Part shown: piece by piece, positions 2,168-9,011 of the stretch
Position numbering within the stretch: the first letter of the stretch is position 1
Layout: each line of letters begins with the position of its first letter
Source: Gemmatimonadota bacterium
Lineage (GTDB): Bacteria > Latescibacterota > UBA2968 > UBA8231
DNA length: 9,011 nt
Direction: 5' to 3'
NCBI GenBank assembly: GCA_002712305.1
Contig: PATE01000082.1
Span: 34,062-43,072 of the forward strand
Notes under the pieces: generated by a model
What the model saw: only the letters and a program-made list of their open reading frames with translations
What the model was told of the DNA's origin: nothing
Database searches by the model: none
Program-made: the position numbers and the translations under genes

Positions 2168-2174
2168 GCTGGCT
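2158..2174. terminator. Small inverted repeat between convergent genes (possible weak terminator)
   Basis: Bases 2159-2173 form a perfect 15-base inverted repeat, GCCAG CTGAG CTGGC, with one further G-T pair outside. It spans the cysK stop and ends on the first base of the stop codon of the convergent metalloprotease gene. As RNA it could fold with a 5-bp stem and 5-base loop on either strand. There is no U-tract on either side, so it does not meet the usual definition of an intrinsic terminator. It is the only structure in the 5-base gap between two converging operons, so a bidirectional role is possible but unproven. Confidence 0.25.
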
Positions 2175-4734
2175 AACGCATCTGCAGCCCCTTGCGCATC
2201 AGTCGTCCTTCCGGCGTGTCCACAACAAACACGTAGACCCCCGTGGCCACTGTGTGGCCATCGCGATCGCGACCGTCCCAGCGAACCACCAGTCGCCGAC
2301 CTGCCTGCACAGCGGGCATTAGGGGCACAGATCCTACGCGCTGTCCCAGTACGTTGTAGACGAACAGATGGGCCGTCCCGGGGCCACCGGCGATGAGCTC
2401 AAGCTGTACTTCAGGATTAAAGGGATTCGGGTAGAGCGCTGAGAGCGCCCACGTCGTCGGTTGTGTCGTATCCTCGACGATGACTGTTTCCACATCGGGC
2501 GACTCGACCACGGCGATCCCGCGCGGGCCACCTGCGGCCTGATAGACACCCAGGATCTGGGTTGTGCCCGTGTCGATGACGTGAATTTCGTCTGAGCTGG
2601 CGGACGTCACGTAGAGTCGTTCACCATCTGGCGACAACGACAACCCGCGGGGGTCGTTGCCAACGCCGACTTGGTCGATGATCGCACCCGACGACGCTTC
2701 GAGTACAAGCAGTAGACCGTCAAGGTGTGCCGTCAGGAACAACAGGTCACGCGTCGGGTGGGCCAGGACCGCGAAGGTTCCCTGGACACCAAGGTCCACA
2801 GTGGACACGGCACGGGTCTCATCATCTACCCTGCCCAGAAGACCCGAGTTGAAGCTCGACACATAGATGGTCGCGCCATCACCGCTTCGCGACAACGCGC
2901 GAGGCGACGTGGGACCTTGAAGGCGGTCCACAACTCGACCCGCGTCGAAAATGATGACCTCGTCCGCGCGAAGATCCGTGACATAGATATGACCGCTGGC
3001 GCCCGTGGTCACGCCATAGGGGCCGGCCGTGCTCTCGCTGATGATCCAGCTGGCGACGACGGCAAGTTCCTGTGTGTCTATGGCTGTGAGTCGTCCCACG
3101 TCTGAATTTGTTACATAGAGCGTGGTCCCATCTGCAGAGATCGTCATGTCGAGGGGGGCTGTTGCGACCGGAATTCGGGCGATGACGCGGAACGTTGCGC
3201 GTTCGACCACGACCACTTGAGATGCGGTCAGGTCGGCCACAAACACACGATTCCCGTCCAGGGAGGACACGATCTGAATCGGATCCTCACCGACGCTGAT
3301 TCGCGAGACCTCCCGATCATTTCCGGTGTCGAAGATGCGGACGGCACCCGCACTGCGCATCACGGCGAAGGCGAGGGGGGCGCCTGTGAGGGACACGACA
3401 TCGAAGTCGACCCATGTCGTTTGGCCCGGGAAGTAGGTGACACGTCCCTCAGTTCCCGTCGCCGCAACCCGATAGCGAATCTGACTGCCCACCGGTTGCC
3501 CTGGAATCTCGATAGCGTACGACTGCGCACCATTCGGTTGCATGGGAACCGACAGGTCCTCAATCTGACCACCGGCTTCGATCTGCATTGTCAGCAGAAT
3601 CTGCTCGACATCTGTCGCCTGGATCTCGACGCGATAGGGCCCCGCTGTATCCGGCGTATTGGAAGGGTGAGCGATGGAGGTGACCGATGGATATCCGGGC
3701 AGGGCCAATCCCGTCACAAAATCGATCCCGCGGAGGTTGCGCAGCGCGCCGGCAGGTAGGGTGATCACCTGCGCCAGCCCCTCCTCGGTGACATTGTCGA
3801 AGAACTCCTTCTGAATGTCCGTGGCCAGATTCGTGAAGATCCCGCCGAAGTTCTCCTCCGTGATACCGTGGCTGAAGGGTTCGATGCGAACCGTGTAATC
3901 GCCCGGAGCCAGGCCCCGCAGGGTGAAGGTTCCCGGCGACTCACGCCCGTGTTCGGCACCCGACAACGTGCTGATCAGGGATCCATCTACGCTCTGTGCC
4001 ACGACATGAGCGCCGAAGACGGGGTCACCTGAGGCGTCGGTGACGATCCCGGAAATGGTCCCACTGGAACGGGTGTGGTCAGACGTTGGATAGAGCGTGC
4101 TGATGCCAGCGATGTCGTCAGCGGCAAGCGAGGAAGCCGCGCCCGGTGTGCCTGAGTAGAAGGGGTTCATCGACGGCTGCGTCACCGCCGATCCGGCCAG
4201 AGGCGTATGATTGAGGCCGAAGAAGTGACCGATTTCGTGGACGGTGACATCGAGAAGGTCGATCTGATCGCCCACGGGTTCGATGGCGAAAGTGAAGTCG
4301 CGGCCATTGTAGATGATATCCGCATCTGTAATCGCACCGGTGGCGACATCGGAGTTCAGCCGTGTGACGGCGATGACGCCTGAGCCGGCCGGTGCGGACA
4401 GGGTGCGACCCGTCTCATCGAAGATGATCACGTTGCGTCGATCCCGGCGATTGGCTGTGGCCCCGGTTTCGATGCCTCCACTCTCGAAGACGATTCGCGA
4501 CGTAGGGACCTCAGTCCACACCTCGAAAGCCGCGTGGATGGCAGCAAAGGCGGCCTGTGACGGCATGTCATCCGATCCGGCGGCGCTCAGGATGTAGCGG
4601 ACCGTGTCTGTCGTCCACCTTAGTCCGACCGGACCATCATCGCCCTCGTAGGTCTGGATGAGGAATCCATTGCTCTGTGCACTCATGGTCAACACGAGTA
4701 AGGCCGCCGCCAGTGATCGCAATCGGAAGCGCAT
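2173..4734 (-). CDS. Secreted matrixin-type zinc metalloprotease with seven-bladed propeller and FlgD-like C-terminal domain
   Basis: This 853-residue multidomain exoprotein begins with a Sec signal peptide (basic MRFRLR, hydrophobic core to about residue 18, likely cleavage near 21). The catalytic domain (about 25-217) carries the metzincin zinc site HEIGHFFGLNH at 166-176 and a Met-turn PSMNP around M189, as in peptidase family M10A. A carboxypeptidase-regulatory-like beta-sandwich follows at about 224-285 (GTISGIVTDASGDPV, then GLAPGDYTVRI). Next come an Ig-like region at about 345-447, a YVTN/NHL-like propeller at about 454-742, and a FlgD-type Ig tail at 762-853 with YPNPFNP (768-774), VYNVLGQRV and GVYVFVV. 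Such tails act as secretion or sorting modules in the FCB group. The protein has no cysteine at all and no recognisable propeptide. It overlaps the upstream small secreted gene by one base (TGATG). Substrate and exact secretion route are unknown. Confidence 0.88.
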   Translation of the reverse strand: MRFRLRSLAAALLVLTMSAQSNGFLIQTYEGDDGPVGLRWTTDTVRYILSAAGSDDMPSQAAFAAIHAAFEVWTEVPTSRIVFESGGIETGATANRRDRRNVIIFDETGRTLSAPAGSGVIAVTRLNSDVATGAITDADIIYNGRDFTFAIEPVGDQIDLLDVTVHEIGHFFGLNHTPLAGSAVTQPSMNPFYSGTPGAASSLAADDIAGISTLYPTSDHTRSSGTISGIVTDASGDPVFGAHVVAQSVDGSLISTLSGAEHGRESPGTFTLRGLAPGDYTVRIEPFSHGITEENFGGIFTNLATDIQKEFFDNVTEEGLAQVITLPAGALRNLRGIDFVTGLALPGYPSVTSIAHPSNTPDTAGPYRVEIQATDVEQILLTMQIEAGGQIEDLSVPMQPNGAQSYAIEIPGQPVGSQIRYRVAATGTEGRVTYFPGQTTWVDFDVVSLTGAPLAFAVMRSAGAVRIFDTGNDREVSRISVGEDPIQIVSSLDGNRVFVADLTASQVVVVERATFRVIARIPVATAPLDMTISADGTTLYVTNSDVGRLTAIDTQELAVVASWIISESTAGPYGVTTGASGHIYVTDLRADEVIIFDAGRVVDRLQGPTSPRALSRSGDGATIYVSSFNSGLLGRVDDETRAVSTVDLGVQGTFAVLAHPTRDLLFLTAHLDGLLLVLEASSGAIIDQVGVGNDPRGLSLSPDGERLYVTSASSDEIHVIDTGTTQILGVYQAAGGPRGIAVVESPDVETVIVEDTTQPTTWALSALYPNPFNPEVQLELIAGGPGTAHLFVYNVLGQRVGSVPLMPAVQAGRRLVVRWDGRDRDGHTVATGVYVFVVDTPEGRLMRKGLQMR
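2510..3375 (-). repeat. Seven protein-level YVTN-type propeller repeats inside the metalloprotease
   Basis: Residues 454-742 of the metalloprotease contain seven degenerate repeats. The core strands are LAFAV (454), RVFVA (496), TLYVT (538), HIYVT (582), TIYVS (622), LLFLT (664) and RLYVT (706). The spacing is 42, 42, 44, 40, 42 and 42 residues. Most blades continue with a second strand such as VRIFD, VVVVE, LTAID, VIIFD or IHVID. This regular period is what a closed seven-bladed beta-propeller requires. The similarity is at protein level only, and I see no near-identical DNA repeats, so this is an old duplication. A protein- or glycan-binding role is inferred from the fold class. Confidence 0.85.
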
Positions 4735-5324
4735 CAGCGGGGCCCGGCGGGAAGGCCGACAGTGAGATCGATTCTCTCAAGCAGGTCTGTCAGTAGATGA
4801 GTACCGGTTGCCGCGACGGGTTTCCGGGTGCCCAGATCGAGACGCTGCATGCCATTTAACGACTGGATCGCCCGGGCAGGACGGCCCGCCTCCCGGACAA
4901 CCTGGAACTTTGCCTGTCCCAAGCCGATCGGCCAGTGGCAACCCGCCTCATCGGCCGTCGACAGGAAGAGAATCACCTCTTCCCCCTCATGAAAACGGGG
5001 CATGCCGGAGATTTCGAAACGACGGCCTTCGGCGACACCCCCAGGTAGCAGGACGTCGATCGTGTCGGGCCAACCCTCGCTTGGTGTCTCCGTCACACGG
5101 GTCTTCATCACCCGCGTGAGCGCGAGTCGGATCTTCGTGACGGGTGTCTGCTCATCGACGACCGAGTGTGACCGGTCTACGATGACGCCCTGATAGATGT
5201 AGGAGGCCCGCTCGCTGAGTTGCTCAACGTCCAGATACTCCACGGTCGAAGCTCTCGCGGTCCCCGCACAGGTGATCAACAACAGGAAAAACCACGACAG
5301 ACGCCGCGGGTACTGATCCAACAT
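4734..5324 (-). CDS. Small secreted protein of unknown function, co-translated with the metalloprotease
   Basis: I do not recognise a named family. From ATG 5324 the product is 196 residues; an in-frame TTG at 5336 would add four. A clear Sec signal peptide is present: basic YPRR, hydrophobic WFFLLLITCAG, and a signal-peptidase I type site TARA|S after residue 25. LITC is a poor lipobox because Thr precedes Cys, so lipidation is unlikely. The mature part begins with STVEYLDVEQLSERA and contains ISGMPRFHEGEEVILFL (105-121) and a GLGQAKFQVV stretch (134-143), suggesting a compact beta-rich domain. The mature protein has one cysteine, C129 (EAGCHWP). The stop shares its A with the metalloprotease start (TGATG), so the two are probably translated together. 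A partner, inhibitor or chaperone role is inference from this coupling only. Similar short secreted proteins near predicted metalloproteases are, to my memory, not functionally characterised. Confidence 0.72.
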   Translation of the reverse strand: MLDQYPRRLSWFFLLLITCAGTARASTVEYLDVEQLSERASYIYQGVIVDRSHSVVDEQTPVTKIRLALTRVMKTRVTETPSEGWPDTIDVLLPGGVAEGRRFEISGMPRFHEGEEVILFLSTADEAGCHWPIGLGQAKFQVVREAGRPARAIQSLNGMQRLDLGTRKPVAATGTHLLTDLLERIDLTVGLPAGPR

Positions 5325-5400
5325 GGTCAGATCCAATCGATCTCGGGTTTGCGCACAGTGGCTCTTAGACGTCGCAGGATGTGTTTTCGTTGCACAAAAT

Positions 5401-6524: not shown

Positions 6525-6553
6525 TTGACACTCCCTTAGCGCCTTGTTACATT
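6525..6553 (+). promoter_or_regulatory. Sigma70-type promoter for the MerR-Fe-S operon, with extended -10
   Basis: A consensus -35 box TTGACA (6525-6530) is separated by exactly 17 bases from TACATT (6548-6553), a 4-of-6 match to the -10 box. TGT at 6545-6547 immediately precedes it, matching the extended -10 TGn. Transcription would start near 6560, in the AT-rich TTTAAAATA stretch, leaving a leader of about 20-40 bases that contains AGGGAG (6565-6570). The spacer is 17 bases, not the 19-20 typical of promoters activated by DNA distortion by MerR proteins, so repression or another operator position is more likely if the gene regulates itself. The match is by eye. Confidence 0.65.
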
Positions 6554-6598: not shown

Positions 6599-7060
6599 AT
6601 GCAAATCGGCGACCTGGCCGAACGCGCTGGCGTGTCCACGCGCACGATCCGCTATTATGAAGAGCTCGGTATTCTCGGGCCCGAAGAGCGGTCGGATGGC
6701 GGGTTCCGGCGATACTGCGACGATCAACTTCGGCGTCTGCAGATGATCCAGGGACTCAAGAGTCTTGGATTCGAACTCGAACAGATTCGGCAACTGTTTA
6801 CGTTGCGGAATGAGACCGAGACCGGCGGTCAGTTAGCCCATCAAATGATCGACATCCTGCGAGGTCAGCAGGAGGCGATCGACAGTAAGATCCAGCAATA
6901 TGTCGAGTTGCGCGAGCGGACGACCCGAGGCATCGCGGTTCTTCAGGACTGTCAGTCCTGTGACATTCGTGTCTTCGAACGAGATTGTCACAACTGCGAA
7001 GTATACCAACGCCACGAGGAAGTGCCTGATCTCGTGGAATGTGCTATCTTTGGGCAATAG
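6599..7060 (+). CDS. MerR-family transcriptional regulator with a C-terminal cysteine cluster
   Basis: The 153-residue protein starts with a canonical MerR winged-helix domain (MQIGDLAERAGVSTRTIRYY, then GGFRRY around 34-39). A long dimerisation helix spans about 75-115. The C-terminal effector loop has C118-x2-C121-x8-C130-x2-C133 and a further C148. Length and loop position match SoxR (154 residues, [2Fe-2S] ligands at 119-130), but the spacing differs from SoxR CxxCxC-x5-C. The x8 gap between C121 and C130 resembles the metal loop of mercury-type MerR, but the MerR Cys82 equivalent is absent. It likely senses a metal or Fe-S cluster; the ligand is inference. The gene leads an operon with an Fe-S carrier and a cysteine desulfurase, so it may control Fe-S assembly. 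ATG 6599 fits the family N-terminus but lacks a ribosome-binding site. TTG 6581, with AGGGAG 10 bases upstream, would add six residues. Confidence 0.88.
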   Translation: MQIGDLAERAGVSTRTIRYYEELGILGPEERSDGGFRRYCDDQLRRLQMIQGLKSLGFELEQIRQLFTLRNETETGGQLAHQMIDILRGQQEAIDSKIQQYVELRERTTRGIAVLQDCQSCDIRVFERDCHNCEVYQRHEEVPDLVECAIFGQ

Positions 7061-7096: not shown

Positions 7097-7450
7097 ATGT
7101 CAGATACCGTAGAGACCAGTCAGATGGTCACAGTCTCCGACGAGGCGGCAGAGAAGATTCGTCTTCTCAATGAAGCCGAAGGGGGCGGTGATCAACGTGG
7201 ATTGCGCATGGCCGTCATCGGTGGAGGTTGTTCCGGGTTCTCCTACAAACTCGAGTTCGCCGAGGGCCCGATAGAGATGGACATGGTCATCGAATCGAAT
7301 GGTGTTCGGATCTTCGTCGACCCGAAGTCCAGTCTCTATCTGAATGGTGTGACCCTCGCCTTTGAAGACGGGCTCATGGGTTCGGGTTTTCAGGTCGTGA
7401 ATCCGAATGCCAGAACGACCTGTGGCTGCGGCGAGTCCTTCAGCATCTGA
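7097..7450 (+). CDS. erpA: A-type Fe-S cluster carrier / insertion protein (ErpA/IscA family)
   Basis: A-type carriers hold a [2Fe-2S] or [4Fe-4S] cluster in the cytoplasm and pass it to apo-enzymes. The 117-residue protein has the three conserved cysteines: C45 in GGGCSGFSY, and C109 and C111 in the terminal TTCGCGESF. The family core (VSDEAAEKI, GLRMAVIGGGCSGF, IFVDPKSSLYLNG, GSGFQVVNPNARTTCGCG) is complete. The ending NPNA-x-TCGCG-x-SFSI is closest to ErpA among the A-type proteins, but ErpA, IscA and SufA cannot be told apart confidently by eye. It starts 36 bases after the MerR stop. I see no Shine-Dalgarno sequence before ATG 7097; ATG 7124 is an in-frame alternative that would shorten the N-terminus. 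Its last 44 bases are overlapped by the cysteine desulfurase frame. The intergenic gap has no obvious promoter, so it is probably co-transcribed with the regulator. Confidence 0.93.
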   Translation: MSDTVETSQMVTVSDEAAEKIRLLNEAEGGGDQRGLRMAVIGGGCSGFSYKLEFAEGPIEMDMVIESNGVRIFVDPKSSLYLNGVTLAFEDGLMGSGFQVVNPNARTTCGCGESFSI

Positions 7451-8648
7451 GCCTTCACGTCGTCTGCCCGACGATCGTTCCGGCGGCTCGCTTCCCATAT
7501 ACCTAGATCATCTTGCCACAACCCCTCTGGATGCGCGCGTCCTGGAGGCGATGATCCCGTTCTACACCACGGATTTCGGCAACCCGTCCTCGGCCCATCC
7601 CTTCGGTTGGCGCGCGAAACAAGCCACCGAAGCGTCTCGCAGCGAAGTGGCCTCTCTCATCGGTGCTTCACCGAGAGAGATCGTGTTCACGTCTGGGGCG
7701 ACGGAGGCGAACAATCTCGCGCTACGGGGGCTCTTGGAGCGCGTGTCCGACCCCCACAACAGAGGCCACCTGATCACGGGCGTGACGGAGCATCCAGCGG
7801 TGCTCGATGTGTGCGATACCCTCGAATTACAAGGGGTCGACGTCACGCGTCTGCCCGTCGACGCGCACGGTCAGATCGACGCCGGTCAGTTGCGAGACAG
7901 TCTGAGGCCTGACACGTTTCTCGTGTCCCTCATGGCCGCCAACAACGAAATCGGGACGCTCCATCCCCTCGCCGAGATCGGCTCGATCCTGAGCGATCAC
8001 CCCGCCTTGTGGCACTGCGACGCGGCTCAGGCAGCAGGCAAGATTCCGATCGATGTGAAAGCGCTGGGCATCGACCTGCTGTCGATCTCAGCACACAAGC
8101 TGTATGGCCCCAAGGGGCAGGGGGCCCTTTATGTCTCTCGCCGCCGTCCCGCGATTCGGTTGGCCCCCCTGCAAGAGGGGGGAGGGCAGGAACGAGGAAT
8201 CCGGTCGGGCACGCTGAATGTGCCAGGCATTGTCGGACTTGGAACCGCCTGCGAGTTGGCCGCTTCTGAGATGCAGGGCGAAGCCGAACGTCTGCAAAGG
8301 CTTCGTGATCGACTCGTCTCCCATCTCACGACGAACCTGCCGCAACTGCGCATCAATGGCCACCCAGAGCAGAGACTCCCGGGCTGCGTCAGCATCTGCT
8401 TTGACGGGGTGGATGGTCGCGATCTGCTGCTTCAACTGCAGCAGGATGTGGCGCTATCCGCCGGCGCGGCGTGCGCGTCGGGTCACGCCGGGCCATCCCA
8501 TGTGTTGGCGTCGGTCGGCCTCAGCGACGAGCAGGCTGCATCGACGCTGCGATTCGGGCTGGGACGGGGAACCACGACACAGCAGATCGATACGGTGGCC
8601 GAGAGGGTTGTGGAGGTATGCACCCGTGTATCGGCTCTTGCGAGTTGA
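7407..8648 (+). CDS. iscS: Cysteine desulfurase (IscS/NifS, group I aminotransferase class V)
   Basis: This PLP enzyme removes sulfur from L-cysteine as an enzyme-bound persulfide, the sulfur source for Fe-S assembly and other thiolation routes. The 413 residues contain IYLDHLATTP (31-40), SGATEANN (96-103), the stacking histidine H129 in TEHP, ISAHK with the PLP lysine K231, GGGQERGIRSGT (258-269), and the long mobile loop SAGAACASG with catalytic C356. The loop is followed by GPSHVLASVGL. The loop length places it in group I (IscS/NifS) rather than SufS. ATG 7407 overlaps erpA by 44 bases and leaves about 30 residues before the conserved start, longer than usual. Rare-type starts GTG 7422 or CTG 7464 would shorten this, but neither has a clear ribosome-binding site. 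Whether it serves a general or dedicated pathway depends on genes outside the window, since no IscU or SufU scaffold is visible. Confidence 0.94.
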   Translation: MPERPVAAASPSASEPSRRLPDDRSGGSLPIYLDHLATTPLDARVLEAMIPFYTTDFGNPSSAHPFGWRAKQATEASRSEVASLIGASPREIVFTSGATEANNLALRGLLERVSDPHNRGHLITGVTEHPAVLDVCDTLELQGVDVTRLPVDAHGQIDAGQLRDSLRPDTFLVSLMAANNEIGTLHPLAEIGSILSDHPALWHCDAAQAAGKIPIDVKALGIDLLSISAHKLYGPKGQGALYVSRRRPAIRLAPLQEGGGQERGIRSGTLNVPGIVGLGTACELAASEMQGEAERLQRLRDRLVSHLTTNLPQLRINGHPEQRLPGCVSICFDGVDGRDLLLQLQQDVALSAGAACASGHAGPSHVLASVGLSDEQAASTLRFGLGRGTTTQQIDTVAERVVEVCTRVSALAS

Positions 8649-8725: not shown

Positions 8726-9011
8726 ATGGCTCTGACATCGAGCCAGTTGCTTGATCAGGTAAAACAGTCGATCGATGAGGTCACTGCAGATCAGGTCAAG
8801 CGTGGACTACAGGCCGGAAAGATCCAACACATCGTCGACGTGCGCGAGCGCGACGAAGTCATGGATGGATATATCCCCGGCGCGCATCTGATCCCGCGAG
8901 GATTCCTCGAACTGAACATCGAAGACGATGTCACGGTGGATCGTGAAGTTCCCATTGTGCTGTACTGTGCCGGTGGCAATCGTTCGGCGTTGGCCGCGCG
9001 TGACCTGGTCG
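8726..9011 (+). CDS. Rhodanese-domain sulfurtransferase, N-terminal part (cut by window end)
   Basis: ATG 8726 has a strong ribosome-binding site, AGGAGAG at 8713-8719, six bases upstream. The first 95 residues are visible and the frame is still open at the edge. After a leader of about 18 residues comes a rhodanese fold: VTADQVKRGL (19-28), the family motif IVDVRERDE (36-44), GYIPGAHLIPRGFLEL (48-63), and the active-site loop VLYCAGGNRS with C81, which would carry a persulfide. The RGFLEL-x-IE stretch after IP resembles N-terminal rhodanese domains fused to MoeB/ThiF-type adenylyltransferases, so the full protein may be either a short single-domain sulfurtransferase or such a fusion. It lies 77 bases after the cysteine desulfurase stop. 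I see no clear promoter or terminator in that gap, so it may share the operon and receive sulfur from IscS. Confidence 0.85.
   Translation, partial: MALTSSQLLDQVKQSIDEVTADQVKRGLQAGKIQHIVDVRERDEVMDGYIPGAHLIPRGFLELNIEDDVTVDREVPIVLYCAGGNRSALAARDLV

Follow-up and report, generated by a model that had tools for sequence, protein, structure and literature searches.

A MerR-family protein with four fixed cysteines heads Fe-S and sulfur operons in two unrelated bacterial phyla, and this probably represents a little-known form of control. The protein is encoded within the window, that is, the whole stretch of 9,011 nucleotides analysed here, which forms the end of a contig (bases 34062–43072 of 43072) from a 4.77-Mb Latescibacterota metagenome-assembled genome. 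As a whole, the observations are best explained by a local MerR repressor of its own operon that would sense Fe-S, iron or sulfur supply, an explanation that we advance tentatively, with slightly less than even confidence.

The MerR protein and its cysteine site

The merR gene (6599–7060, + strand) encodes a protein of 153 amino acids (6599–7057), in which an N-terminal winged helix-turn-helix of MerR type (PF13411/PF00376) is joined to a MerR-DNA-bind region. All three Pfam MerR models exceed their curated cut-offs (MerR_1, 5.7e-20; MerR, 1.6e-15; MerR-DNA-bind, 1.7e-9), in agreement with the MerR-type regulator that an earlier note on this DNA had placed here. The Pfam matches are confined to MerR models, the Rrf2 domain (PF02082) being unmatched. 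None of the NCBIfam equivalog cut-offs for CueR, ZntR, CadR/PbrR, MerR, NmlR and SoxR is reached: the metal-efflux sensor models (CueR, ZntR, CadR, MerR) give 66–75 bits, compared with cut-offs of 143–168, and the SoxR model (TIGR01950) gives 50.6 bits against a cut-off of 116.9. The AlphaFold2 model of the monomer has a mean pLDDT of 93.6, with values of ~89–91 across the cysteine region, and contains the long dimerisation helix at residues 76–118. Its structural matches are CadR, PbrR, SoxR and CueR, with a Z score of 13.1 to CadR.

Cysteines are located at positions 40, 118, 121, 130, 133 and 148, with none between residues 41 and 117. Cys40, which resides in the DNA-binding half, is absent from the list in the earlier note, whereas the other five, as well as the CxxC-x8-CxxC spacing, were given there exactly as found in the translation. 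The codons of C118-x2-C121-x8-C130-x2-C133 span 6950–6997 (+ strand) and encode a candidate metal or cluster site that follows the dimerisation helix, and the comparison of the folds supports the earlier placement of a C4 site at a SoxR-like position. Cys118, Cys121 and Cys130 are each present in 48/48 aligned relatives, with identities down to ~26%, and position 133 is Cys in 47 and His in one, an invariance that is partly circular because the profile used to collect the aligned sequences covers the cysteine columns and most rows were chosen for the motif. Cys148, counted as part of the set in the earlier note, proves dispensable, since it is Cys in just 12 of the 48 relatives, and it was rejected as a member of the site. 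When residues 101–153 were shuffled, a C..C-x6..10-C..C pattern arose in 0.3% of trials; the cysteine pattern is more than chance. The four cysteines very probably bind a metal or a cluster.

Three untypical copies (L030, L068 and L076) were excluded from the 48 rows. The merR copy L030/L058, from genome G024 of the window's own family (f1), has Tyr in place of Cys121 and, in the DNA-binding half, a gap of four residues, reflecting either decay or an assembly error. In L068 and L076, both related MerR proteins from Bacillota, the cysteines are arranged differently, as CxxC-x4-C-x3-C. The C-terminus also matched a high-potential iron-sulfur protein (E ~1), a match that was set aside as chance.

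The motif offers no choice among Fe-S cluster, iron and zinc, because the C-x2-C-x8-C-x2-C spacing is also that of the RecR C4 zinc finger. An arrangement of the cysteines as a C4 zinc site of the RecR kind, whether structural or zinc-sensing, in a protein that responds to zinc or another cue in place of Fe-S status, is therefore a serious, if minority, possibility. One second-phylum member (see below) can be aligned with solved RecR chains over the motif, albeit with low scores, four such members weakly match the RecR model (best 5.8e-7 and 2.8e-5), and the single natural Cys-to-His change falls on the fourth ligand. In addition, Cd/Zn-bound CadR and the Pb sensor PbrR are among the best structural neighbours of the model. 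The window protein itself, however, finds no RecR match in NCBIfam or among PDB sequences. In metal-efflux MerR sensors, a ligand is located where the dimer helix begins, in the region matching residues 41–117 that is devoid of Cys here. Moreover, no zinc-efflux or uptake gene was recognised beside merR among the family members examined, and the neighbours are instead Fe-S and sulfur genes. It is this gene neighbourhood that gives Fe-S or iron a slight preference over zinc, and we regard a site for an Fe-S cluster or iron, rather than for zinc or thiol chemistry, as an even call.

Gene order around merR in two phyla

Within the window, merR leads a run of genes on one strand, merR-erpA-iscS-rhodanese/ThiF. 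A gap of 36 bp separates it from an erpA-like gene for an A-type Fe-S carrier (7097–7450, + strand), the product of which matches Fe-S_biosyn (5e-19) and TIGR00049 (5.2e-33) and scores 112.8 with the ErpA model against a cut-off of 117. The next gene encodes an IscS/NifS-type cysteine desulfurase (7407–8648, + strand; 443 bits, under the equivalog cut-offs); its ORF overlaps erpA, and the true iscS start probably lies downstream of the ORF start. Both neighbours had been named in the earlier note and are borne out by Pfam and NCBIfam profiles. The run ends with the start of a rhodanese-ThiF (MoeB/MoeZ-like) gene (8726–9011, + strand; Pfam), which is cut by the contig end and complete in relatives, where a rhodanese-ThiF fusion of ~395 aa is the last gene of the operon in 10/10 longer loci. 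Downstream of it, the relatives carry a TrmB-like methyltransferase gene (Pfam), followed by mraZ and rsmH (assigned by eye). Upstream of merR in the window lie cysK (1118–2167), a gene for a large secreted M10-type peptidase with a beta-propeller and a FlgD-like C-terminus (2173–4734, − strand), and a gene of beta-lactamase fold on the other strand. The peptidase gene adjoins one for a small protein that no Pfam model matches (4734–5336, − strand).

In family f1, merR is present in 23 of 25 genomes, with erpA directly adjoining and iscS following in 23/23, and the linkage is kept down to ~54% regulator identity. Of the two genomes without merR, G003 (L243) has an Rrf2 gene, an ATP-binding PP-loop gene (LarE-like by eye) and NifS together, and G005 lacks the close iscS as well. 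This clade alone constitutes weak evidence, because parts of the wider synteny, namely the downstream trmB-mraZ-rsmH order, are frozen in f1 too.

A scan of a genome collection for distant relatives led to a second, unrelated phylum, represented by 46 genomes, eight of which encode the protein at ~26–34% identity. In all seven loci whose downstream flank could be read, merR is directly followed by a NifU-like gene and then, on every contig that extends far enough, by NifS; the eighth contig (L067) stops after merR. The one NifU that was profiled contains NifU_N, BFD-like and NifU domains (Pfam). Thus, the recurrence beside Fe-S assembly genes that the earlier note had proposed as a check is observed, in an unrelated phylum and with another gene set. 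A NifU search of the same 46 genomes returned eight, namely the seven with merR-nifU and G144, so that merR and NifU co-occur in a 7/1/1/37 table (Fisher p ~1e-6, with genomes counted regardless of kinship). In G144, nifUS is found without merR, and an Rrf2/IscR-like gene is located directly after nifS. Within either clade, the linkage partly reflects common ancestry.

The frozen trmB-mraZ-rsmH order raises the alternative that merR merely adjoins the operon by frozen synteny and regulates itself or something unrelated. The sister families, in which merR has a different location and its promoter bears operator-like sites, are in keeping with this. We nevertheless consider it improbable, given the lead position of merR in the same-strand run, the short gap to erpA and the conserved promoter, and given that the second phylum has the same arrangement with different Fe-S genes. 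We expect, with good confidence, that MerR is a local regulator of this operon.

Relatives are also found away from Fe-S genes. In the sister families f3 and f4, orthologues of 43–47% identity keep all four cysteines away from erpA/iscS: merR is located between a purH-like gene and a gene for a sigma-70-type factor, and iscS comes after ftsY and is followed mostly by genes for an ApbC-like P-loop NTPase and a rhodanese. The signal may therefore be something else. The earlier note had held that cysteines kept next to metal-efflux genes would tell against its proposal; the f3/f4 orthologues go part of the way, keeping them without Fe-S genes, but no metal-efflux gene was recognised next to merR in the loci read, where many neighbours were judged by eye rather than by profile. 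Related proteins occur in 6/395 genomes of one further phylum, in 10/369 of a gammaproteobacterial class and as single loci elsewhere, for example in a Nitrospirota MAG (L065), and the loci read from these groups contain no recognised Fe-S assembly gene beside merR. A small protein of ~75 aa is encoded beside merR in nearly all of the gammaproteobacterial loci (L097, L102, L173-L175, L177-L181), with a consensus like GVIAPRF...HLLLVAY...GYxAQLVGM and no convincing Pfam match. In a tree of 54 sequences, the f1 and second-phylum groups fall into distinct clades, both of them supported, and unlinked groups lie in between. Because the tree is unrooted, the linkage may have been gained twice or may be old and have been lost several times.

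In two gammaproteobacteria, a TusA sulfur-carrier gene lies directly upstream of merR, and TusA is found between merR and the ~75-aa protein in L097 and L173. Together with the sulfur-transfer neighbours IscS and rhodanese-ThiF, TusA would suit a metal-free thiol or persulfide switch that reads sulfur flux from IscS and the rhodanese. This reading is unlikely, if marginally less so than frozen synteny, as a fixed distance between two CxxC pairs, and the replacement of one Cys by His, would be more typical of metal ligands.

The same genome also carries a suf operon, with SufB/SufD-type core proteins, an ABC ATPase and a cysteine desulfurase (Pfam), followed by SufU-like and PaaD-like frames (by eye) and then an Rrf2 gene. 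The MerR operon is thus a second, IscS-based sulfur-mobilising operon and not the only route. The presence of an Rrf2 gene at suf likewise argues that MerR is not the main Fe-S regulator of the cell, and a cell-wide replacement of IscR by MerR was rejected.

Promoter and operator-like sequences

Upstream of merR in the window, a -35 element TTGACA (6525–6530, + strand) and a -10 element TACATT (6548–6553, + strand) are separated by a 17-bp spacer. A TTGACA-17-TAyATT-like promoter precedes merR in 26 f1 loci (19 different sequences), and the spacer is 17 bp in 26/26, that is, wherever the promoter was found. The over-long spacer of 19–20 bp, a criterion that defines the classical activators (the MerR, CueR and SoxR mechanism) and not the whole MerR family, was not encountered. 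In the mer system, promoters with spacers of 16–18 bp are almost unaffected by MerR, whereas the 19-bp wild type is regulated (PMC11049809). The 17-bp spacer therefore speaks against classical untwisting activation and, by inference, for repression; that MerR acts mainly as a repressor is a reading we moderately favour.

In the merR promoters of f3 and f4, a palindrome ACTTTAACGT-N-ACGTTAAAGT is positioned between the boxes in up to three copies; five loci (L034, L040, L060, L062 and L063) show two or three copies of the ACYTTRACGTNACGTYAARGT type upstream of merR. The RpoD-like sigma factor that follows merR in L060, L063 and others is possibly MerR-controlled. The merR promoters of the second phylum bear ACCTTGACGT-TA-ACGTYARGGT-like repeats over the -35 element. 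When eight f3/f4 genomes were searched whole, the f3/f4 palindrome gave one or two sites in each of six, all at merR, and no site at two mismatches in the other two. Similarly, exact or one-mismatch matches to the g7 version, ACTTACGTTCACGTCAAGT, occur at merR only in five f1 genomes searched whole. A wider regulon was rejected, as the 21-bp and 19-bp operator patterns matched merR promoters only, with the exception of one three-mismatch match each in G018 and G024; in G024, a control pattern scored as often as the operator pattern. Control looks local, because operator-like sites lie essentially only at the promoter of merR itself.

For the lineage of the window, a MerR-type dyad in the spacer was sought and rejected, no centre being clearly above column-shuffled controls (best z ~2.3 over 20 centres). 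When single sequences were scanned, a palindrome was conspicuous in most loci of f3 and in some of the second phylum, but not in f1.

Proposed control and comparison with known systems

We suggest that a MerR dimer would sit on the merR promoter and control its own operon (merR-erpA-iscS-rhodanese/ThiF), with few or no other targets. Repression would be achieved by occupying or distorting an otherwise strong promoter with 17-bp spacing. Each protomer would have one site, formed as in the SoxR sensor loop by the four cysteines that follow the long dimer helix; through its occupancy, this site may inform the DNA-binding half of the supply of Fe-S clusters, iron or sulfur. The operon would then be off when supply is sufficient and on when it is short. 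The fully specified proposal, in which an Fe-S cluster or iron on CxxC-x8-CxxC makes MerR a local feedback repressor of Fe-S/sulfur operons at a normally spaced promoter in at least two phyla, is correspondingly more doubtful.

SoxR, the well-studied [2Fe-2S] protein of the MerR family, reads redox stress through a cluster motif of CxxC-x-C-x5-C. The window protein shares with it the MerR fold (Z 12.5 for 2zhh), a similar length and the position of the cysteines just after the dimer helix, but departs from the SoxR motif with its CxxC-x8-CxxC, from the SoxR promoter with its 17-bp spacing, and from the SoxR target with an Fe-S operon in place of soxS. CadR, PbrR, CueR and ZntR are nearest in fold and profile score; the window protein differs from them in the absence of Cys at the start of the dimer helix, the missed equivalog cut-offs and the lack of a recognised efflux gene nearby. 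With the zinc finger of RecR, which is a recombination protein, it shares the motif spacing, yet the resemblance goes no further than this short motif and the sequence-score matches are limited to second-phylum members.

An IscR-type protein is usually expected at the head of Fe-S operons. The proposed likeness to IscR and other Rrf2 proteins is that of a local regulator at an Fe-S assembly operon, and the one merR-less nifUS locus of the second phylum has an Rrf2 gene; the window protein nonetheless belongs to an unrelated domain, and its genome keeps a separate Rrf2 at suf. The suggestion of the earlier note that a MerR-family Fe-S, iron or zinc sensor controls the operon therefore holds in part: fold, C4 site, recurrence and the Rrf2 gene of the merR-less nifUS locus speak for it, whereas the RecR-like spacing, the suf Rrf2 of the same genome and the unlinked f3/f4 orthologues weaken the case for Fe-S sensing as such. 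In the open-access literature searched, no study was found that describes a MerR protein linked to Fe-S operons.

The set assembled here comprises 23 genomes of one family, eight of a second phylum and the unlinked relatives. If the proposal is true, it would represent a second use of the MerR fold, sensing Fe-S or sulfur supply for assembly genes in the place of IscR: a MerR-type counterpart of IscR that dispenses with classical untwisting activation.
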